Of a stretch of 28,010 nucleotides of DNA, positions 5,223 through 28,010 are shown piece by piece (the stretch's first letter is position 1; the number at the start of each line of letters is the position of its first letter). The notes below the pieces were generated by a model, which was not told where the DNA came from, made no database searches, and was given only the letters and a program-made list of their open reading frames with translations. The stretch comes from a virus. The translations under genes and the position numbers were made by a program. The stretch is taken from positions 1-28,010 of IMG/VR virus record IMGVR_UViG_3300031705_000035; one strand, written 5' to 3'.

Positions 5223-6124
5223 CTTATAAACGAGTAATAATCTTTGCTAGGGGTTAATGTTAAACTGGCACGATCACGATCTTCCGCCGCAGCTCGTTCA
5301 AATTCTTCTTCATACACAGCCTTCAATAGTTGCACACGACTAGGGGCTTTCTTTAAACTTAGATAATAAGCTAGACCTGCGGCTAAACAAGGATAAAACC
5401 TAAAAGGCACATCCACTGTATTTTGTGGGTCATCTACATCATTTATTCTAACAAGCCTGTCAAACACAAGAGTGTAAGTTAGTGCATCAGGGGTTGACCA
5501 CAATTTCACAATAGGTGTGATTTGCCTATCTATATAAAACTGTGTAGGTCTTGCTGTTGTTGTTTTGCTGGGGATGTTAATATATGTGTCCCTACTAATA
5601 CGACCAATAGCTATGTCTGACTGATTACCTGACCCATCATTTTGTCTTATAACAGCAGACAAAACGTCTATGGTGCTTCGTACGTTAGAAAAGTCTACCG
5701 CAGAAGTCACCGTTGTAGAAGCACCACTTGTTTCACCTACAATAGTTTCACCCGCAACAAATGTCCCTGAAGGTATAGTTATAGCAAAAACAGTAGCAGA
5801 AGTAGCACTTGTTATTAAAGCAGTAGCACCACTTGTTACACCTGTAATATTTTCACCCTCAATAAAAGCGTTAACAGTCCCTACGACTATATTTAATATT
5901 CCGGCAGGATAATCAGCAACACCTGTAACTAACGGCAAAGATACCTGCTCAATAGTCCAACGATTTAACCCACGATTCGCCCAGTCTGCAAAAAGTAAAT
6001 TTAAAGAACGCTTTGCTGTTTTTAAATCGTAACCTGAGTTAACAATTAAACCACAACGCTCAAACGCTTCTTCTATATACTCTGCTACATCTGGTTCAAA
6101 ATCGACTGATCCTGAAACTGCCAT
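5219..6124 (-). CDS. Tail accessory / connector protein (P22 gp4-like N-terminus) with beta-repeat insert
   Basis: 301 aa. The N-terminal ~65 residues (VAEYIEEAFERCGL..., ...YDLKTAKRSLNLLFADWANRGLNRW) resemble the helical start of P22 gp4-like head-completion/tail accessory factors. At about residues 80-145 there are two GENITGVTSGAT / GETIVGETSGAS beta-repeats, related to those in the gene at 3200-4054. The C-terminal part has helices and DRLVRINDVDDPQNTVDVP. It probably forms a ring under the portal. The start overlaps the upstream stop by one base. Confidence in the exact class is moderate. Confidence 0.6.
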   Translation of the reverse strand: MAVSGSVDFEPDVAEYIEEAFERCGLIVNSGYDLKTAKRSLNLLFADWANRGLNRWTIEQVSLPLVTGVADYPAGILNIVVGTVNAFIEGENITGVTSGATALITSATSATVFAITIPSGTFVAGETIVGETSGASTTVTSAVDFSNVRSTIDVLSAVIRQNDGSGNQSDIAIGRISRDTYINIPSKTTTARPTQFYIDRQITPIVKLWSTPDALTYTLVFDRLVRINDVDDPQNTVDVPFRFYPCLAAGLAYYLSLKKAPSRVQLLKAVYEEEFERAAAEDRDRASLTLTPSKDYYSFIR

Positions 6125-6420
6125 TAGCTATAAGGTCCTTTTATCACTTTTCCACCGCTCTTCATGCCCTTGGGCTTCATAGCACCGCCCATTTTCATAC
6201 CCTTGGGCTTCATTGATGTAGCACCGCCCATTTTCATACCCTTGGGCTTCATTGTCTTGCCACCCATCTTCATACCCTTGGGCTTCATTGTCTTGCCACC
6301 CATCTTCATACCCTTGGGCTTCATAGCCTTGCCACCATTTTTCATGTAGCCCATTGAGTTGCGGACTTTTTTAGGCAGTTTAGCAAGACCTGGATTCTTT
6401 TTAGCATTAACTTTTTTCAT
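6124..6420 (-). CDS. Lys/Met/Gly-rich tandem repeat protein
   Basis: 98 aa when started at ATG 6420, which has GGAG six bases upstream; a start at 6450 would lack support and deepen the overlap with the upstream gene. A basic N-terminus (MKKVNAKKNPGLAKLPKKVRN) is followed by five copies of MKPKGMK(M/S)GG with 0-3 residue spacers, then the C-terminal tail KVIKGPYS. No acidic residue is seen. The tail is shared with the protein at 7103-7279. Such Lys/Gly peptides are common in the structural regions of marine phages; DNA condensation or virion-internal binding is possible but unproven. Confidence 0.8.
   Translation of the reverse strand: MKKVNAKKNPGLAKLPKKVRNSMGYMKNGGKAMKPKGMKMGGKTMKPKGMKMGGKTMKPKGMKMGGATSMKPKGMKMGGAMKPKGMKSGGKVIKGPYS
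6151..6324 (-). repeat. Coding tandem repeat, ~36-bp unit, five copies
   Basis: Five direct copies encoding MKPKGMK(M/S)GG plus a variable 0-3 residue spacer (unit lengths 12, 12, 13, 11, 10 codons). The core on the plus strand is CCCTTGGGCTTCAT. Units 1 and 2 are nearly identical at the DNA level, which suggests recent expansion by slippage or unequal recombination. Copy number is expected to vary between related phages. Confidence 0.9.
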
Positions 6421-7099
6421 CGTCATCTCCGTTTTTGTACAAGTTGTCAAAAATTCTATTCACATCTAGCGTATAGTCTAAATCAGATTTTGAATAGTGT
6501 ATATGTTGTGAAGGTCTAAAATCTGGTGCTCCTTCTCCTGTTGAAAACCACGCAGGGTGTGTAACTCTAACCCTGTTGTTAGGTAATGCTACGATGTTTC
6601 CCGTCCATTCCCCTGCATCTAATAACTGTAAAACGTGTGACTGTTTGTGCTGTGCGGGATCATCAGCTATTTCGCTTTCTGTATAATCTACAGTAAACAA
6701 ATACTTTGCTGGGAACATTTCCCCATTAATCTTTGCTAACCAAGGACAAGGTGTAGTTCTGTCCATTACATAAACTGAATGATTATGCGAAGAACAATCC
6801 CAAGGCTGTGCCTCATAAGTTTGCATAGGCTCTGGCCACTGTTCTAACGGGACATCTCCAACCAAACCCGTTATAGGCATTCTAGCCCACATCGCACCAC
6901 CGTGAACTGTATCCTCTTCTTCACCTTCTGCCTCACATCCCGTAAATATAACTTGGAAACTCAAGCTTCTATTTGGGACAGTCGTAACAGCAATAACCAT
7001 AGCGTGTAAAAACTCGCCGTGATACTTTTCGTGATTGTGGGTGTACTCTTTACGAACCCAACACTTAAAGTACGGGATATTGCTTTGTAAATAACTCAT
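6407..7099 (-). CDS. Conserved phage hypothetical, 230 aa
   Basis: 230 aa, soluble. The sequence is orderly and globular (FKCWVRKEYTHNHEKYHGE..., FQVIFTGCEAEGEE..., GGAMWARMPITGLVGD) with many aromatic residues and His, no membrane segment and no enzyme motif I can name. Proteins like this occur near tail genes in marine podovirus-like phages and may be virion or tail proteins. The 3' end overlaps the following start by 14 bases. The upstream gap to the next gene is only 3 bases, so it is translated as part of the operon. Confidence 0.7.
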   Translation of the reverse strand: MSYLQSNIPYFKCWVRKEYTHNHEKYHGEFLHAMVIAVTTVPNRSLSFQVIFTGCEAEGEEEDTVHGGAMWARMPITGLVGDVPLEQWPEPMQTYEAQPWDCSSHNHSVYVMDRTTPCPWLAKINGEMFPAKYLFTVDYTESEIADDPAQHKQSHVLQLLDAGEWTGNIVALPNNRVRVTHPAWFSTGEGAPDFRPSQHIHYSKSDLDYTLDVNRIFDNLYKNGDDDEKS

Positions 7100-15412: not shown

Positions 15413-17791
15413 TTACCCCCTCGTTTGATTTTGTTTCTGTATAGCAATACGGGCTCGCATTTGAGCTATGTCTTCTGTACTATCTATACGATCTTGTCCT
15501 AATTGGAAAGTTTGTTGAGCTCGTTGTTGGTCTAGCGCAAGTTTTTGTTGATCGCTCTGTTGATCCGCTTGCATCTCTTGTTCACGTAACTGCAACTCCT
15601 GTTCCTTAATGCGTACAAGTGGGTCATCTTCTTGTGCAGGAGGTTGGGCCTTTTGGTATTCAGCAATTAATTGCGCCTGTATTTGAGCAATCATCTTAGC
15701 GTGTTCCTCAGGCTGTTGCTGTTGTGCCTGTGGGTCCTGTGCCATTTGTTGATCGTGTGCAACTTGGGCTTTCATACCCAAATGTTCGTAAATATGCTTT
15801 TCAAGGGTCATTAAAAGTGGTGGCTGCATTTGTGCAATCTTACTATTCATATACGCAGCGTGTACAGCTATATGACTATCATGATCTTGCTCAGGGAAAG
15901 CTTGCATTTGCCCTTGTCCACCCGCTACCTTACTAGCCTCTTGGTTTTCTGTTGACGGATCTAAAGGCTGCGGCTCGGGCTCAGGGTTTAATATCTGTTC
16001 AATATTATTCACACCTAACGCTTCATAAACACGCTTATATGATTCATACAAATTGTGTAACTCAGGCGCTGCTTGGGCTAATTTCAACTGTTCTTGGGCT
16101 AAAACTACTCTTTGTGACATACTAAAGATGTTAGGGTCACTTACTGGCAGTATATCTACACGACCATCAAAATCTTGGGTTTTTATCTGCCCATCTACGC
16201 CTACTGCATAAGGGTAAGGTGCTGGATCTTCTGAAAATAACCGCCCAAGCATCCTTAACTCTAATTTCATAGACGAATGGAGTCGCTTATGAACGGCACT
16301 TACAATCCTATTGCCACGTTCCAACAAAGCAATCGTAGTACCAACAGGCATTTCTGTATTACCCTGCCCCATACCCATATCGGTTGTCCCTATAAACCGT
16401 TGGGCTGCTTCTACTACGAAACCCATCAACTGGAACAACGTCGCAGAAGGTTCTTTATAAGGTAACGGCATTAAAGAGGCTTTTAAATCACCTCCAGGAA
16501 CATCAACATCCCTAAACTCTCCAGGACTGAGCGGGTTTGCCTCATCTGCAATCCGTAAACCTCTAGCTTTAAATCCTGCTGGCATATTACTCAACGTACC
16601 CGCATCAATTAACTGTCGTAAGTTAGCTGTAGCTGTACGGGACAAGTTCCCAAGCAAGTGAATCAAGCCAAAACCATAAAAACCTAATCCTGGAGTAAAC
16701 TTATACTGCACAAAATGTGGGATTTTATTTTTTCTAGGGTCATCTGGCTTATAATTACGCCGAATAGACAACACTTCGCTTGTATCAAGGCAAACTGTTA
16801 CAATATAAGGGAGCTTTATACCTGTCTCTTCACCCTCTTCATCAACATCGGGGTAATCATCGAGATCCAAAAAGCAATGGCATTCATACAACGTAAACTG
16901 CTCATCCGTACCCGACGGCGATCTGCCCTCAATATCATCATAAGCATCAGTAATAGTGTCAGACCCATCAGTCTTTCCACCTTTTTTCTCCATATCGAGA
17001 TAAAAACCAGACACTTGTAACTTGCGTAACTCATTCTCAGACATCTTTATAGAATGTGTAACACGCTCAGCAGTTTTTAAATCAGTAGCAACATAAGGTA
17101 CAAGCACATCTTCCGCAGGGATAAACTTACTTACAGGGCGTCCCAAACCTTCATCACGGTAAACCTTTTTAAAAGCACTACCCGCCAAACCAAGATAATA
17201 TAACATCTGGTCAAACTCTGGTTCGTACTCTTCCATACCATACATAATTTGGTAATTCATATATTCTTGAACACGTTTCGCCTGTTGCTCAGTTTCAGGG
17301 CTGGGCAAACCAACAATATTAGCTCGCACAGGGCCAGAACTTGGTAACATCTCTTTATAAGCTTGGGCCTGAAACTGTGTAACAGCCTCATTCAACAACG
17401 GGTGGATTACTCCAGTAGCACCATCAAAAGGCTCGGAACGGGTTTCATACCGCATACCAAGCAAATCTAAACCCTTGACATAAGTATCTTCCCAATCATC
17501 ACGGCTATTGCGGTCCTCTTCTACAGACTCTAGCACATAACTCGCAACACCAGTTAACGAAGCATCGGAAACCATCGGGGCTAAATTATCGAAAAAGTTT
17601 TCTGGCTCTTCGCCAAGAGTTTCTTCATCCTCGCCAAAAGTTACTTCAGCCCCATCTTCATTCTCAACAATTTCTACATTTAAAAAATCATCTTCTTGTT
17701 GGGCAAGATTATCATCTTCTATACTTAAGAAATCATTCGGAGCCTGTACTAACGCTCTATCAATATTGCTCGGACGTGGGGGTAGTGCCAT
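15413..17791 (-). CDS. Portal protein
   Basis: 792 aa. After an acidic N-terminus (to ~residue 75) comes the portal core: SVEEDRNSRDDWEDTYVKGL, YETRSEPFDGATGVIHPLLN, EAVTQFQAQAYKEMLPSSGP, then HFVQYKFTPGLGFYGFGLIH and LSRTATANLRQLIDAGTLSN, a wing/stem pattern of podovirus-type portals, with a MGMGQGNTEMPVGTTIALLERGNR channel segment. The last ~150 residues are a Gln/Ala-rich coiled coil (QADQQSDQQKLALDQQRAQQ), the barrel-like extension. It forms the dodecameric ring docking the terminase. Its ATG overlaps the terminase stop by one base (TAATG). Confidence 0.9.
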   Translation of the reverse strand: MALPPRPSNIDRALVQAPNDFLSIEDDNLAQQEDDFLNVEIVENEDGAEVTFGEDEETLGEEPENFFDNLAPMVSDASLTGVASYVLESVEEDRNSRDDWEDTYVKGLDLLGMRYETRSEPFDGATGVIHPLLNEAVTQFQAQAYKEMLPSSGPVRANIVGLPSPETEQQAKRVQEYMNYQIMYGMEEYEPEFDQMLYYLGLAGSAFKKVYRDEGLGRPVSKFIPAEDVLVPYVATDLKTAERVTHSIKMSENELRKLQVSGFYLDMEKKGGKTDGSDTITDAYDDIEGRSPSGTDEQFTLYECHCFLDLDDYPDVDEEGEETGIKLPYIVTVCLDTSEVLSIRRNYKPDDPRKNKIPHFVQYKFTPGLGFYGFGLIHLLGNLSRTATANLRQLIDAGTLSNMPAGFKARGLRIADEANPLSPGEFRDVDVPGGDLKASLMPLPYKEPSATLFQLMGFVVEAAQRFIGTTDMGMGQGNTEMPVGTTIALLERGNRIVSAVHKRLHSSMKLELRMLGRLFSEDPAPYPYAVGVDGQIKTQDFDGRVDILPVSDPNIFSMSQRVVLAQEQLKLAQAAPELHNLYESYKRVYEALGVNNIEQILNPEPEPQPLDPSTENQEASKVAGGQGQMQAFPEQDHDSHIAVHAAYMNSKIAQMQPPLLMTLEKHIYEHLGMKAQVAHDQQMAQDPQAQQQQPEEHAKMIAQIQAQLIAEYQKAQPPAQEDDPLVRIKEQELQLREQEMQADQQSDQQKLALDQQRAQQTFQLGQDRIDSTEDIAQMRARIAIQKQNQTRG

Positions 17792-19257
17792 TAATAATAC
17801 TTCCTTATCCTAGGACCTGTATCCTCTTCCTCATAATCTTCGGGGTGTTGGATAAAGCCTCCTTCTCTGAATCTGCGTAAAGCCTGTGTTACAGTATCAA
17901 CATAATCATCATGCTCTCCAGCAGGGAAAGCAGCACACTCTTCAATAACTTCCTCGGCCCATCTAGTATCTGGAGCCCACACTAAACCACTTTCAAGCAA
18001 AGGCGCAACTGAATTCACTCGAGTAAATTTATCATTGCCTCTACTCGGGCTGTAATTCTGCACTGGTATACCCATAGCTCTCAACTCTTGGGTTAACGGC
18101 ATCCCCGAAGCTTTCGCCTCAATTAAAACACACTCAGGGTCCCAATACTTATACTCTTCTAACGCTCGCCTACGCAAATCAGGAAAATCCCATCTACCAC
18201 GGGAAGCATCAACAAGAATAATGTTCGGCGGTTCACCCTCCTTAGGATAAAAAACACCCCATGTAGTTATCGCGCTATAATCAGCAGACTCTTTTTTACT
18301 GAAAGCCGTATCATAACTCTGCATAATATACTCCAAAGGCGGCAACTCTTTTTTCTCCCAACGCTTCCACCACTCTCGCTTTAAAATAGCAGACTGTTCA
18401 CTCGTCGGGTTTTGCTGCCACTGAGCTTCCCACTTACCTACCGATAAACTTCCCTTGACAGAAAGTAAATCTTCCTTTTTCCAATACTCTCCCCACAACG
18501 GCTCATCAGTCTCAGGCATCAAAGCAGGGAATTCAACAACCTCCCACTTATCTGCCAAAACATCTCGCGCCTGTTGCTTCAACAACTTACCCGTTAAATC
18601 ATTTTCTGCCCATCGGGTCATAATAATCACAATAGACCCTCCAGGTTGTAAACGCTGTCTCGGGCCAGAAGTATACCACTCATAAGCATGCTCCATAGCC
18701 GTAGGGCTCAACGCATCCTGCTCACTATGGGGGTCGTCAATAATTAACAAATCCGCTCCACGTCCAGTAACCGCACCGCCAACTCCCGCAGCAAAATACT
18801 CACCACCCTTTGAAGTCTCCCAACGTCCCGCAGCCTGACTGTCCGCTCGCAACTCCACATCAAATATTTTTTTGTACTCAGGCGAATTCATCAAGTTACG
18901 GGTCTTACGTCCAAATCTAAACGCCAACTCCGCAGTGTGGGTAGTCTGCATAATCTTCAACGTAGGCTTACGTCCCATCAACCACGCAGGTAATAAATAA
19001 CTTCCGAATTCAGATTTCGTGTGCCGTGGTGGCATATTCACTATTAATCGCTTCAAATCACCACGGGCCAAACGGTTGAACTTCTCAGCCATAATCTTAT
19101 GGTGGCGTCCATTAATAAAATCTTCCCAAACAACTTTTGTAAATTCCATAAAATCTTCACGCGCTAACTCAGATTCACTGATTTCCTTAGCTCGGTCTAA
19201 TAAATTTGCGAATTTCTTTAAATGCTCTTCTGGGACATTTGTAAGGTCAAGGGTCAT
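17791..19257 (-). CDS. terL: Terminase large subunit
   Basis: 488 aa. ATPase domain: adenine-side helix HHKIMAEKFNRLARGDLKRL, Walker A-like MPPRHTKSEFGS near residue 75, and Walker B LLIIDDPHSE near residue 170, followed by the coupling segment IVIIMTRWAENDLTGK. RNase H-like nuclease domain: YDTAFSKKESADYSAITTWG (first Asp), CVLIEAKASG (second acidic residue) and HDDYVDTVTQALRRF (third). It packages DNA into the prohead through the portal ring. The start ATG at 19257 has no recognisable SD, unlike most genes here. The terminase small subunit is not adjacent but about 2.8 kb upstream. Confidence 0.95.
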   Translation of the reverse strand: MTLDLTNVPEEHLKKFANLLDRAKEISESELAREDFMEFTKVVWEDFINGRHHKIMAEKFNRLARGDLKRLIVNMPPRHTKSEFGSYLLPAWLMGRKPTLKIMQTTHTAELAFRFGRKTRNLMNSPEYKKIFDVELRADSQAAGRWETSKGGEYFAAGVGGAVTGRGADLLIIDDPHSEQDALSPTAMEHAYEWYTSGPRQRLQPGGSIVIIMTRWAENDLTGKLLKQQARDVLADKWEVVEFPALMPETDEPLWGEYWKKEDLLSVKGSLSVGKWEAQWQQNPTSEQSAILKREWWKRWEKKELPPLEYIMQSYDTAFSKKESADYSAITTWGVFYPKEGEPPNIILVDASRGRWDFPDLRRRALEEYKYWDPECVLIEAKASGMPLTQELRAMGIPVQNYSPSRGNDKFTRVNSVAPLLESGLVWAPDTRWAEEVIEECAAFPAGEHDDYVDTVTQALRRFREGGFIQHPEDYEEEDTGPRIRKYY

Positions 19258-19300
19258 ATATTATAAATACATCGAAAAATTTCAAAGGGCAATGAACCTA

Positions 19301-19323
19301 TAATCAATACACACTATAGGGGG
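19301..19323 (+). promoter_or_regulatory. T7/K11-type phage promoter-like sequence on the plus strand
   Basis: Contains ACACACTATAGGGGG. The segment CACTATAGGG equals the core of the T7 promoter, and CACACTATAGGG the core I remember for the K11 promoter. The -17 to -8 part fits less well, and no phage RNA polymerase gene is in this window. It points rightwards, antisense to every gene here, toward the G-rich tract and the GA-free block. Confidence 0.35.
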
Positions 19324-19440
19324 TACGTCATCTAGGCTTTCCGTTGAGCACAGTTCACTATCCACGCAAAATGTTTTTGGTACTCGAAGAAATATCCAGA
19401 ACTTGGTTATAGCTGACGCCACAACCAAAGGTCGTCCACA

Positions 19441-19466
19441 GGGGGGGTGGTAGGGGGTGGGGTGGG
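19441..19466 (+). other. G-quadruplex motif
   Basis: Plus strand: G7, TGGTA, G5, T, G4, T, G3. Four runs of at least three G with loops of 5, 1 and 1 satisfy the standard G4 pattern with very short loops, which favours stability. The minus-strand (mRNA-sense) copy is C-rich. It starts within five bases of the left edge of the GA-free block, 50 bp past the P2 stop. Confidence 0.85.
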
Positions 19467-19484
19467 CTATGGTAGCCAGTGGGT

Positions 19485-19509
19485 GGCTAGGGGTACCTTA
19501 CCCCTAGCC
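19485..19509. repeat. Perfect 11-bp inverted repeat downstream of P2
   Basis: GGCTAGGGGTA, three-base loop, TACCCCTAGCC. It lies 7 bases beyond the P2 stop codon. In minus-strand RNA it forms a GC-rich hairpin but has no U-tract after it, so it is not a classic intrinsic terminator. It could shield the 3' end of P2 mRNA or form a cruciform next to the G4 motif. Confidence 0.8.
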
Positions 19510-19516
19510 GTTGCCG

Positions 19517-19960
19517 TTAGGCTGTAGCCTTGGCTGTAGGCTGTGGCTGTACTACTAGCTGTACGTAGCCTGTACCCCAAACCGCACTGCTAGGGCTGTA
19601 CCCGCCATTTAGCATTGCCATTAGGCACACAGGGCTTTTAGTGCTGTGGCCTAGTGGCTTGGCGGCGTTAAGTATAGCGGCTAGGCTGTTGTTGCCGTTA
19701 ACACCATTAAGCAACCAATTTTGTATAGTTGCGCGTACACCCGTGCCCTTGCCAGTAAAACCAAATGGCACAGGCTGTGCCGCGTTTAGGTTTACATTTG
19801 CAAGTGGCTTAACTTGTACATTGTGCAAGCTACCTGCCGCGTGGGTGTTTACAAAAGCCCACAACTGCGCGTTGGTAATTGCTGTGCCAGTGTTTTGTAG
19901 TGTTACTACTTTTACTGGTGTTGTTGCCTTAGCAACCTTTGTGTTTTTAACTTGTGCCAT
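19517..19960 (-). CDS. P2: unknown-family protein encoded without GA or TC
   Basis: 147 aa from ATG 19960, preceded by AAGGGG seven bases upstream; an alternative GTG at 20023 has no SD. The core QLWAFVNTHAAGS..., PVPFGFTGKGTGVRATIQNW, LLNGVNGNNSLAAILNAAKP, LGHSTKSPVCLMAMLNGGYS, PSSAVWGTGYVQLVVQ aligns end to end with P1 (20380-20838). N- and C-terminal tails are Ala/Thr/Lys/Pro-rich. There is no Asp or Glu, one Arg, and all Ser codons are AGY, because 15 sense codons containing GA or TC are excluded. Where P1 has Asp or Glu, P2 often has Asn. Function unknown; the excess of Lys without acids would allow nucleic-acid binding. Confidence 0.85.
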   Translation of the reverse strand: MAQVKNTKVAKATTPVKVVTLQNTGTAITNAQLWAFVNTHAAGSLHNVQVKPLANVNLNAAQPVPFGFTGKGTGVRATIQNWLLNGVNGNNSLAAILNAAKPLGHSTKSPVCLMAMLNGGYSPSSAVWGTGYVQLVVQPQPTAKATA

Positions 19961-20039
19961 TTTATACCCCTTTACTGGTTTTTGGCTGTAGCCCTTATTG
20001 GCTACCCTTACTTTATTGCACACTTAAATAGGTATTACA

Positions 20040-20048
20040 ATAGTGAAC
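20040..20048 (-). promoter_or_regulatory. GTTCACTAT motif upstream of P2
   Basis: The minus-strand 9-mer GTTCACTAT lies 80 bp before the P2 ATG. An identical copy lies 59 bp before the P1 ATG (20897-20905). The only GA between 19437 and 20173 (at 20045) is inside this motif. It could include a -10 element (TATTGT here, TATACT at P1) or a phage-specific promoter core. Confidence 0.45.
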
Positions 20049-20063
20049 TTGTATTATTTATAA

Positions 20064-20120
20064 TTATTTTAACACGCCATAAATACCTACTATTATAAGT
20101 AGTATAATAATTACGTACAT
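20064..20120 (-). CDS. 18-residue hydrophobic micro-ORF
   Basis: ATG 20120 to TAA 20064 encodes MYVIIILLIIVGIYGVLK, one short hydrophobic segment with a Lys at the end. The upstream sequence GGAGCAGGAA gives a strong SD at six bases. It lies between the GTTCACTAT motif and the iteron block. A membrane-active micropeptide or a leader peptide controlling P2 are possibilities. At this length chance cannot be excluded, but the only two TC dinucleotides of the region sit in its SD. Confidence 0.45.
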   Translation of the reverse strand: MYVIIILLIIVGIYGVLK

Positions 20121-20219
20121 TTCCTGCTCCTGTGTTGTTGTTGTTTACTTACTTTATTGCAACGTTTGCCAGTGACCAAGTTTTATTTGGCTGACCTGAT
20201 TTTATAAGACGGAGAGAAA

Positions 20220-20314
20220 TTTGAGGATGATTGATAATGACCCGAGGATGATTGATAAAGATTGATTATTATATATACCTTTGTATATATACGTCCTCAA
20301 ATATCCTCAAGAAT
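20220..20314. promoter_or_regulatory. Iteron block around an AT-rich hairpin (possible origin or control region)
   Basis: Left half: TTTGAGGATGATTGAT (20220-20235) and CGAGGATGATTGAT (20243-20256). Centre: an AT-rich hairpin, TATATATAC-CTTT-GTATATATA (20270-20291). Right half: GTCCTCAA and ATCCTCAAGAAT (20303-20314), the inverse orientation. So four TTGAGGAT-like boxes flank an easily melted hairpin, like replication origins or multi-site operators. It contrasts with the adjoining GA-free block: about fifteen GA occur within 20206-20265. No initiator protein gene is identified here. Confidence 0.5.
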
Positions 20315-20351
20315 GGTCTCATAATCCTTCTTCCTCGGGAATGGGATGGGA

Positions 20352-20379: not shown

Positions 20380-20838
20380 TTAGGCTTGGACTACAAGCTT
20401 GACGAACGGTGTCATCCAGTATTTGCTGGACGGTGAGTACCCACCGTGCAAGAGAGCGTGTAAACAGACAGGCTTTTTACGACTGTGTCCTAACGGAGCC
20501 GCTTTAGTGAGAACCGCCTTTAGTGTGACATCGCCCTCAACACCGCGTAACATCCAGTCTTGTATTTTCTGGCGCACACCGCCCGACCGTCCACCGTAAC
20601 CAAAGGGCACGGGAGCGTCAGACTTCAGGTCTACATTGTCAAGAGCAACGATTCTTACGTTGGCCTCGTTGCCACCTGCTTGCGTCTGTACAAAATGCCA
20701 GATGTCGTCGTACGTCAACTCTTGGTCGGTGACCACCAACTCAACAGATTTAACCTCAACGGGTTTAACCTCAATAGATTTAACGACAACCTTTTTAGAG
20801 GCAGATTTAGGGGAAGTCTTTTTAGCTGTATTAGCCAT
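20380..20838 (-). CDS. P1: unknown-family protein, paralogue of P2
   Basis: 152 aa. An N-terminal Lys/Ser/Val-rich region with a small internal repeat (VKSIEVKPVEVKSVELVV) precedes a globular core from residue ~37: LTYDDIWHFVQTQAGG, NVRIVALDNVDLKSDAPVPF, GYGGRSGGVRQKIQDWMLRG, VEGDVTLKAVLTKAAPLGHS, RKKPVCLHALLHGGYSPSSK and YWMTPFVKLVVQA. By eye over 40 percent of core positions match P2. Conserved Trp, Cys, His and GGYSPSS suggest a defined fold, but I do not know the family. AGGAG lies upstream of the ATG. P1 has its own terminator and a promoter-like region, so it is a separate transcription unit with ordinary GA/TC content. Confidence 0.85.
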   Translation of the reverse strand: MANTAKKTSPKSASKKVVVKSIEVKPVEVKSVELVVTDQELTYDDIWHFVQTQAGGNEANVRIVALDNVDLKSDAPVPFGYGGRSGGVRQKIQDWMLRGVEGDVTLKAVLTKAAPLGHSRKKPVCLHALLHGGYSPSSKYWMTPFVKLVVQA

Positions 20839-20868
20839 GATAGAAGCTCCTTTCTACGAGCAATCCCA

Positions 20869-20881
20869 GCACACCGTGTGC
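20869..20881. promoter_or_regulatory. Operator-like palindrome in the P1 leader
   Basis: GCACAC-C-GTGTGC, six-base arms around one base, located 31 bp before the P1 ATG and just downstream of the GTTCACTAT motif. A repressor bound here would block initiation from that site. Confidence 0.4.
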
Positions 20882-20893
20882 CAGTAACTACAG

Positions 20894-20920
20894 AGTATAG
20901 TGAACCCACAGCGGGAGCAA
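20894..20920 (-). promoter_or_regulatory. Candidate P1 promoter
   Basis: Minus strand TTGCTC, 15 bases, TATACT, the -10 being part of GTTCACTATAC (20895-20905). The spacing is short for a sigma70 promoter, so the conserved TTCACTATA core may instead be a phage-specific signal; related cores lie before P2 and upstream of terS. Confidence 0.4.
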
Positions 20921-20939
20921 GTCTTTTATACTCTTTGAT

Positions 20940-21068
20940 TATCTTTATTTATAGACTCCGAATCCTCAAGAATCATCGTCATCATCAATCATCGTCCGTG
21001 GATTTTCGTTCATCATCAATCATCCTCAAACTCTTTGTCATAATCATTCTTCCTCTATCATGGGACAA
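20940..21068. repeat. GATGATTGAT / TTGAGGAT repeat cluster upstream of P1
   Basis: On the minus strand this stretch holds GAGGATGATTGATGATGA (near 21012-21029), GATGATTGATGATGACGATGA (written in part; near 20972-20992) and ATTCTTGAGGAT (20962-20973). The 16-mer TTTGAGGATGATTGAT matches 20220-20235 exactly in inverted orientation, so P1 is bracketed by inverted iterons. The plus-strand TCATAATCMTTCTTCCTC also recurs directly at 20319-20336 and 21038-21055. Confidence 0.7.
21053..21068 (-). repeat. TTGTCCCAT motif, copy 1
   Basis: Minus strand TTGTCCCATGATAGAG, three bases past the nuclease stop codon. It matches 22654-22669 (TTGTCCCATCATAAAG), just before the terS SD, in 14 of 16 bases. Shared use as a promoter or operator element is possible. 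Confidence 0.5.
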
Positions 21069-21070
21069 AA

Positions 21071-21505
21071 TTAGAGATCCTTCTCCTTGTGATGGGTCTG
21101 ATTTGATGATAGAATATGATTGATGATACCCGTCCAATCGTACGGTGTCGGGCAACTCCAGTCAGGGGTCCATGATTCTCCGTTTCCCGCTATCTGCATC
21201 GCTCTTTGTCCACCATATATATTTAGGGTAGAGGACGAAGGATGATGAACCAAGTTATAAACCGAGCCGCCATTCATAGAATATCTTGTTTGCCACGCGA
21301 TTTGGTGAGGACGTAAGGTTATAGACTTTAGGGACTTTAACCTGTGGACCTTCAATTCTAACCAAAAAGGATGACCTTGGACGATGCCGTGTAAGTCCGG
21401 CACACCTGGACTTGCCCATGATTCTAGGCGTGTCCAAAACACACCTAGATCTTTGGTTCCGTCACGGAGTTTATACCATAACTGTGATTCGGGTTTTGTT
21501 CCCAT
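21071..21505 (-). CDS. PD-(D/E)XK nuclease-like protein (VRR-NUC type)
   Basis: 144 aa. The nuclease signature is GVPDLHGIVQGHPFWLELKV: catalytic Asp in GVPDL, then Glu-x-Lys in LELKV, preceded by ARLESW-like FWTRLESWASP and followed by LRPHQIAWQTR, a common C-terminal helix of VRR-NUC and related phage resolvase-like enzymes. The last ~50 residues (WTPDWSCPTPYDWTGIINHI) are a family-like tail. It may resolve recombination intermediates or trim DNA before packaging. It is coupled to the upstream gene by TAATG and is immediately upstream of the P1 control region. Confidence 0.8.
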   Translation of the reverse strand: MGTKPESQLWYKLRDGTKDLGVFWTRLESWASPGVPDLHGIVQGHPFWLELKVHRLKSLKSITLRPHQIAWQTRYSMNGGSVYNLVHHPSSSTLNIYGGQRAMQIAGNGESWTPDWSCPTPYDWTGIINHILSSNQTHHKEKDL

Positions 21506-21822
21506 TACATATCAAATCCCATGCGGTTACAGTACTCCGTGCGACTTTCAATATCTTCGTAATAGTGGTCAGATAAAGATTCACCGTGGTGGTCATCTTC
21601 GTGCCAATTATCAGGCTCTGGCTCTACACCGTCTTCTTCTAAAATAGGCGTCGGGTTCATTTCGTAGACATAGACGTTAAAGCCTAATTTCTTTTCTTGT
21701 CTGGCTAACAAAATTGCATCTATGCGTTTTTCAATCCCAGTAGTCGTTGAAGCTACCTTCTCTTCGTCTTTACAAAAATATGTAGAAACGACTTGGTACT
21801 CATTTGTCATTGGAAAGGCCAT
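21505..21822 (-). CDS. Hypothetical acidic protein, 105 aa
   Basis: 105 aa. N-terminal half alpha/beta (TNEYQVVSTYFCKDEEKVAS, RIDAILLARQEKKLGFNVYV), C-terminal half acidic with a His cluster (NWHEDDHHGESLSDHYYEDI). Both ends overlap neighbours by one base, so it is in the terS-nuclease operon. No family is recognised; the His/Asp-rich patch could bind metal. Confidence 0.65.
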   Translation of the reverse strand: MAFPMTNEYQVVSTYFCKDEEKVASTTTGIEKRIDAILLARQEKKLGFNVYVYEMNPTPILEEDGVEPEPDNWHEDDHHGESLSDHYYEDIESRTEYCNRMGFDM

Positions 21823-27613: not shown

Positions 27614-28010
27614 CTAAAGTTTACGGGTGTCATTTGCTAGACACAGAGTTGTTATTATCTCAGAAGCAGGTTCAAAAATCAATTCCTTTTTGTACTTTTT
27701 GTTTAAATAATCTATCCCACGCAAAAATACTTCCTCGGCCATACTGTTTCCTTGCAGCATTAAACGATAACAATGCAGCACCAGCTCTAATTTGTCCACA
27801 ATATCACACATTTTCTTGTCTTCTTCAGTGATAGGGTGTACTATTTCGCCTACGCCAATAGATAGCTCATAAGCTTTTTCGGCTTTTACCATCAGCTTAT
27901 TTATTTCAGGATAGCCCCACTTGGTTGTGGCAGGGACATCCCCTACTTCTGCCTCGGCAACATCGTGATACAACAAATGCAAGATGCAGTTCTTGCTTGC
28001 CTCAGGGTAA
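27614..28010 (-). CDS. HD-domain nucleotidase (YfbR-like), 5' end cut by window edge
   Basis: At least 131 residues, open to the right edge; the frame continues upstream of the first internal TTG as YPEASKNCIL. The motif LHLLYHDVAEAEVGDVPATT contains the HD pair and the downstream Glu and GD.P of YfbR-type 5'-deoxynucleotidases, and CDIVDKLELVLH supplies the second conserved Asp. The N-terminal His lies outside the window. It would hydrolyse dNMPs or related nucleotides to adjust pools during replication. It heads the visible cassette with the nucleotidyltransferase. Confidence 0.85.
   Translation of the reverse strand, partial: YPEASKNCILHLLYHDVAEAEVGDVPATTKWGYPEINKLMVKAEKAYELSIGVGEIVHPITEEDKKMCDIVDKLELVLHCYRLMLQGNSMAEEVFLRGIDYLNKKYKKELIFEPASEIITTLCLANDTRKL

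Follow-up and report, generated by a model that had tools for sequence, protein, structure and literature searches.

The 28-kb virus fragment analysed here contains, at a single locus common to a family of marine phages, a block from which both GA and TC are absent. This phenomenon is real, recurrent and maintained and, by comparison of the sequences, the two dinucleotides are kept out by selection, more strictly for TC on the template strand than for TC on the coding strand.

Architecture of the GA/TC desert

Among annotated phages, those nearest by terL to the window, i.e., the whole stretch of 28,010 nucleotides that was analysed, are the HTVC023P-type pelagiphages and phage DSL-LC04 (65-67% DNA identity). 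Its minus strand carries, in this order, a TerS-like protein, a small nuclease-like protein, the paralogue of the block gene, the block, terL and the portal gene (Table 1).

Table 1. Features of the block and of its surroundings, in window positions
Feature	Position	Strand	Remarks
GA/TC-free block	19437..20045	none	609 bp, from base counts
GA-free run, coding (minus) strand	19436..20122	-	686 bp
Block gene	19517..19960	-	147 aa, no Asp/Glu, basic
Upstream paralogue of the block gene	20380..20838	-	152 aa, 50% identical; GA ordinary, TC raised
Mini-ORF MYVIIILLIIVGIYGVLK	20064..20120	-	Own Shine-Dalgarno (SD); read by eye
Perfect hairpin without GA/TC, 3' of the stop codon	19485..19509	-	Terminator-like
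Conserved non-coding site, block/terL interval	19258..19436	-	GA-containing first element; ~180 bp; read by eye
TGAGGA / TCCTCA inverted/direct repeats, GA- and TC-rich	20190..20345	none	Other flank of the desert
Direct repeat TGCAATAAAGTAAG, copy 1	20148..20161	-	Weak: two matches reached by 9/100 shuffles
Direct repeat TGCAATAAAGTAAG, copy 2, block-gene leader	20007..20020	-	Weak: same 9/100 shuffles
Terminase large subunit (terL), downstream of the block	17791..19257	-	
Small nuclease-like protein	21071..21505	-	PHROG helicase/endonuclease/Holliday-resolvase families; conserved neighbour
YfbR-like 5'-deoxynucleotidase homologue, window edge	27614..27982	-	

The block (A 116, C 138, G 165, T 190) has GA = 0 and TC = 0, where about 24 GA and about 42 TC are expected from the window's own frequencies (4.0% and 6.9%, respectively); its other dinucleotides include AG 34, CT 44, TG 63 and CA 33. 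The length-corrected chance of such a GA/TC-free run is about 10^-26.9. The base counts and this chance thus confirm the total absence claimed by an earlier, sequence-only reading of the window. The second-longest GA/TC-free gap of the window measures 77 bp and immediately adjoins the block, outside which GA and TC are at normal levels: the avoidance concerns a single locus. On the coding strand, only 2 GA are found in a region of about 859 bp around the block. Besides the block, the strongest single-dinucleotide gap is a 252-bp run without AA at 6124-6450, where a Lys/Gly-rich protein with repeated MKPKGMKMGG units is encoded.

As that reading had also held, the ban spans coding and non-coding DNA, since the flanks obey it: 19437-19516 has 0 GA and 0 TC, and 19964-20122 has a single GA, on the + strand. 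The desert comprises a non-coding leader, a promoter region, the gene and then a hairpin or T-run terminator, the promoters, mini-ORFs and conserved site having been identified by eye and the promoter being a probable one. Many relatives have a T-run terminator at the position of the window's hairpin. In nearly all relatives the desert ends abruptly at the GA-containing first element of the conserved site preceding terL, a possible packaging site, but that of L068 and L054 reaches about 70 bp past the terminator T-run. GA/TC-rich inverted repeats lie at the desert border in many relatives. Hydrophobic mini-ORFs 5' of the block gene are also present in L063, L049 and L089; the L060 leader too contains a short one (type MWLLIFALIVLGFYGLLKK), and the mini-ORF itself lies within the desert in several lineages. 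A possible leader hairpin, seen by eye just 5' of the start codon in the window (19985-20010), L005 and L063, has arms that vary yet still pair (GTAGCC/GGCTAC, GTAAGC/GCTTAC). Many IMG/VR contigs stop in the block or close to it, within 2 kb of the paralogue on its downstream side, and either broken assemblies or true genome ends could lie behind this. As the ends of near-complete contigs are scattered, this clustering was given no weight as evidence, and no fixed genome end was found beside the block.

Lying between terS and terL, the block gene is a tandem duplicate, now diverged, of the normal gene next to it, and is under purifying selection (dN/dS 0.04-0.19). The absence of Asp and Glu from its 147-aa product, deduced earlier, is confirmed. 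Although the AlphaFold model of this protein is confident (pLDDT 86), fold searches against PDB and BFVD give no structural match, a sequence profile has no match in PDB, and no Pfam or PHROGs family scores above cut-off. The phage collection yielded no homologue of the block gene, and the bacterial and archaeal genomes searched yielded no relatives. The capsid genes, the paralogue and the unbanned block genes have a common TC-rich codon style, which suggests strong expression and which the banned genes have given up.

Recurrence in relatives and evidence for selection

The block protein and its paralogue, used as queries, retrieved about 90 IMG/VR loci. When all dinucleotides are scanned blindly over the first 91 loci, GA/TC gaps at or near the block fill nearly all the top ranks. 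The desert recurs at orthologous loci on independent contigs from other samples (L001-L004, L011, L038, L081 and others), which excludes assembly error; these orthologs are 50-77% identical in protein sequence and occupy the same place between paralogue and terL. The complete relatives having the ban contain no second such desert, and G004 has two block genes in tandem, both TC-free.

The degree of the ban varies among lineages. GA and TC are both essentially absent from L001-L004, L011, L038, L081 and L082, among others, and TC is essentially absent with a few GA left in L046, L049, L062, L063, L066, L068-L072, L075-L077, L079 and L089. L005, L036 and L056 have no coding-strand GA, together with an ordinary or near ordinary number of TC (17, 23 and 14, respectively), and L022, L027, L055, L060 and their kin have ordinary or high TC with GA still too low. 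Conversely, TC is lower than GA in L037, L039 and L007. The pooled observed/expected ratio of coding-strand GA is 0.20 for banned block genes and 0.58 for non-banned orthologs; the remaining ortholog clusters with members in 6 or more genomes all lie at 0.88-1.14. The avoidance is therefore composed of two layers: coding-strand GA, equivalent to template-strand TC, is depleted in every ortholog, whereas coding-strand TC is banned in a subset only and is back to normal in others. The strict strand symmetry from which the sequence-only reading had argued fails in L005, L036 and L056, whose state shows that the strands are constrained separately and unequally. As a separate observation, terL of G001 (36396-37859) and G003 (16520-17983) has a coding-strand TC observed/expected ratio of about 0.35 with ordinary GA, an asymmetry opposite to that of the block.

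Several results indicate that the ban is imposed on the nucleotides themselves. Synonymous recoding of the closest orthologs (L001-L003) yields on average 12-14 GA and 15-18 TC, with a minimum that never falls below 4-5 in 1000 draws, and banned genes reach z of about -4 to -6 under synonymous reshuffling. The residual GAs of TC-free blocks are nearly all Asp/Glu codon starts (bases 1-2) or belong to a Shine-Dalgarno sequence; the pressure thus acts on nucleotides and yields only to the needs of protein and ribosome. The ban is retained near synonymous saturation (dS 1.7 between L049 and L089). At the TC and GA sites of relatives, banned genes show GC, AC, TA, TG, CC, TT or AA in mixed proportions, in favour of avoidance rather than deamination. 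Deaminase hypermutation (TC to TT) was rejected as a candidate on account of this mixed spectrum.

On a paralogue-rooted tree, whose basal lineages are unbanned, at least 10 changes of state are counted for the TC ban and at least 7 for the GA ban, numbers that cannot distinguish gain from loss. From these sequences it is plausible that the ban was gained in the ancestor of a large clade and relaxed later. Some relatives do have normal content for TC, a state that would have spoken against the sequence-only reading; as they lie within an otherwise ban-keeping lineage, they represent relaxation and not an artefact. No gene separates keepers from losers of the ban by its presence or absence.

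Modification genes and possible causes of the ban

A PF18723 protein is encoded by all the relatives whose contigs reach the region (14/14; E 1.7e-50 in G001), in nearly all 14 with a hydroxymethylase-like thymidylate synthase (TS) homologue and a glycosyltransferase, beside polA. The TS homologue is present in each locus-reaching relative examined gene by gene. Its best solved match is a CMP 5-hydroxymethylase, hydroxymethyl-U or hydroxymethyl-C being the candidate product. The YfbR-like nucleotidase, frequent in relatives, adjoins polA and the modification cluster there; the window record stops at its own YfbR homologue, short of the cluster, and we infer the presence of the latter in the window's phage from relatives such as G009 (terL 94% identical). 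A PF18723 protein and a TS-like enzyme are found beside polA in the thymidine-hypermodification phages M6, ViI and phiW-14 (PMC6449724, PMC9599517), in which restriction-resistant sites point to hypermodified T at TG or TC (PMC6449724). In partly banned G013 (L207-L208, ~20500-21600), clustering recovered no glycosyltransferase ortholog in the interval from the PF18723 gene to the TS gene, and the final modification of this relative may be different.

Our preferred explanation, to which we give a probability of about 0.4, is that the desert could be a transcription unit or island kept free of modification by lacking the target dinucleotide of the phage's own modifying enzymes, on the template strand first. 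Gene content and PMC6449724 both point to the phage's own base-modification pathway as the probable agent. The TS-like hydroxymethylase, the PF18723 protein and the glycosyltransferase would act on TC steps genome-wide and hypermodify their pyrimidine, so that a stretch without template-strand TC or, in many lineages, without TC on either strand would remain unmodified. The host RNA polymerase would then transcribe this unit early or strongly, serving a special step, e.g., the first transcription of injected, fully modified DNA; the step that profits could also be the handling of the neighbouring packaging region, or the unit could in this way withstand a modification-dependent nuclease. Scanning of the proteins revealed no RNA polymerase of the phage's own. 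A TC context would account for both layers with a single dinucleotide: the two banned words would be reverse complements and the strands separable, a GA-free coding strand being a TC-free template strand. The template-first asymmetry of L005, L036 and L056 would suit transcription by an RNA polymerase.

The first hypothesis of the sequence-only reading, avoidance of a GA-specific modification, is thereby changed in its chemistry: 7-deazaguanine at GA is not supported, as a TGT/DpdA homologue is found in 0/12 relatives (14/14 control genomes match), and its sister form, T hypermodification at TC, is favoured by gene content and PMC6449724. The suggestion of a block free of primase sites is not supported either, the primase being of the archaeo-eukaryotic AEP type and not T7-like. 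A dinucleotide-dependent nuclease and a mark that tells own from foreign DNA, both also suggested there, may still account for the ban.

Several observations go against a modification-free unit. TG, which is the second published context, shows no avoidance. The M6-like pathway includes a P-loop 5-hmdU kinase (PF18748) that was not found here: the PF18723 gene is preceded by one with neither a match nor a P-loop, and G001 and G006 have no candidate nearby. No comparable desert is present in the other PF18723 phages M6, PaMx11, Sonora and RHph_I65, or in 1.25 Mb around 80 further PF18723 loci. Moreover, non-banned G005 and G007 share 93% identity with partly banned G009 in the PF18723 protein, so that the ban must depend on more than this enzyme, and the TC-poorer loci L037, L039 and L007 go against a strict template-first rule. 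Two runs of other kinds, neither of them comparable to the desert, were seen in the course of these searches. The PF18723-bearing contig L249 has a 279-bp intergenic run (414-692) without TG and with few CA, possibly a related island of different context, or chance; in L278, a helicase-like gene contains a gap in GA on one strand.

The agent could alternatively act on RNA, the block transcript escaping an endoribonuclease or an RNA-binding repressor dependent on GA and, in the second place, on UC. The desert does approximate one transcription unit, from mini-ORF leader to terminator, and coding-strand GA is the stricter layer. Two unrelated RNA words would nevertheless have to be reverse complements by chance, such a nuclease was not identified, and in L068 and L054 the desert overshoots the terminator. 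We consider this explanation unlikely, if the best placed of the alternatives, and the preference for a DNA-level agent voiced in the sequence-only reading holds up. Less probable still is the evasion of a DNA-targeting host defence (a nuclease, a modification-dependent nuclease or a PAM-dependent system) aimed at GA/TC in the stretch exposed first or most. The position of the locus next to terL and to a possible packaging site would fit, and ban strength differs among lineages as it would under host-driven pressure; that no fixed genome end was found here does not fit, nor does the GA-only, strand-asymmetric state, which would leave targets on the opposite strand. Dinucleotides, furthermore, rarely serve as defence targets, and since all lineages have the same motif, an agent carried by the phage itself is suggested.

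The borders raise another, also unlikely, possibility, which we rank below both of these: a DNA-binding protein (TerS, the paralogue or the block protein) could nucleate at the TGAGGA/TCCTCA repeats and be kept off the block or packaging site by the desert. It would account for the GA/TC-rich inverted repeats at the border in many relatives and for the stop at the GA-containing element of the conserved site, but a motif of 6-8 bp can be avoided without a total dinucleotide ban, and the binding protein is not known. Mutational erosion, by a targeted deaminase or mutator striking TC/GA at the locus, would likewise spare Asp/Glu codons under purifying selection. It is very improbable, given that lost TC became GC, AC, TA, TG, CC or TT and not mainly TT, and that the block shows no drop in GC content. 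Finally, an assembly or chance artefact, or a compositional by-product of an acid-free protein, might be suspected from a single record at first sight; the independent contigs, the synonymous-shuffle scores and the inclusion of non-coding DNA make its probability negligible.

Relation to known systems and significance

The relatives of the window's phage share with M6, ViI and phiW-14 a PF18723 protein and a TS-like enzyme beside polA. They differ from these phages by the dinucleotide-lacking locus, the presence of a glycosyltransferase and the P-loop HMUDK that was not found; M6 itself has no such desert. With 7-deazaguanine insertion at GA by DpdA in coliphages, our proposal has in common a dinucleotide-specific DNA modification, although the TGT/DpdA homologue of that system is missing in the 12 relatives. 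Restriction-site or PAM avoidance is alike in that selection strips short words from phage DNA, but its known examples extend over whole genomes and involve longer motifs, whereas a total, strand-graded dinucleotide ban at one locus is seen here. HTVC027P, 023Pt_psg01 and DSL-LC04 have no comparable desert. For a ban on one dinucleotide that is complete, selected, graded by strand and restricted to a single locus, no named category is known to us, and we found no such feature described in open papers.

If the desert is indeed an unmodified island, phages with modified DNA must spare specific genes, and their sequence holds a readable record of the dinucleotide specificity of the modifying enzyme. 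The way in which a host RNA polymerase starts on hypermodified DNA would then become testable. Whatever the agent, the banned, half-banned and relaxed relatives constitute a natural experiment.
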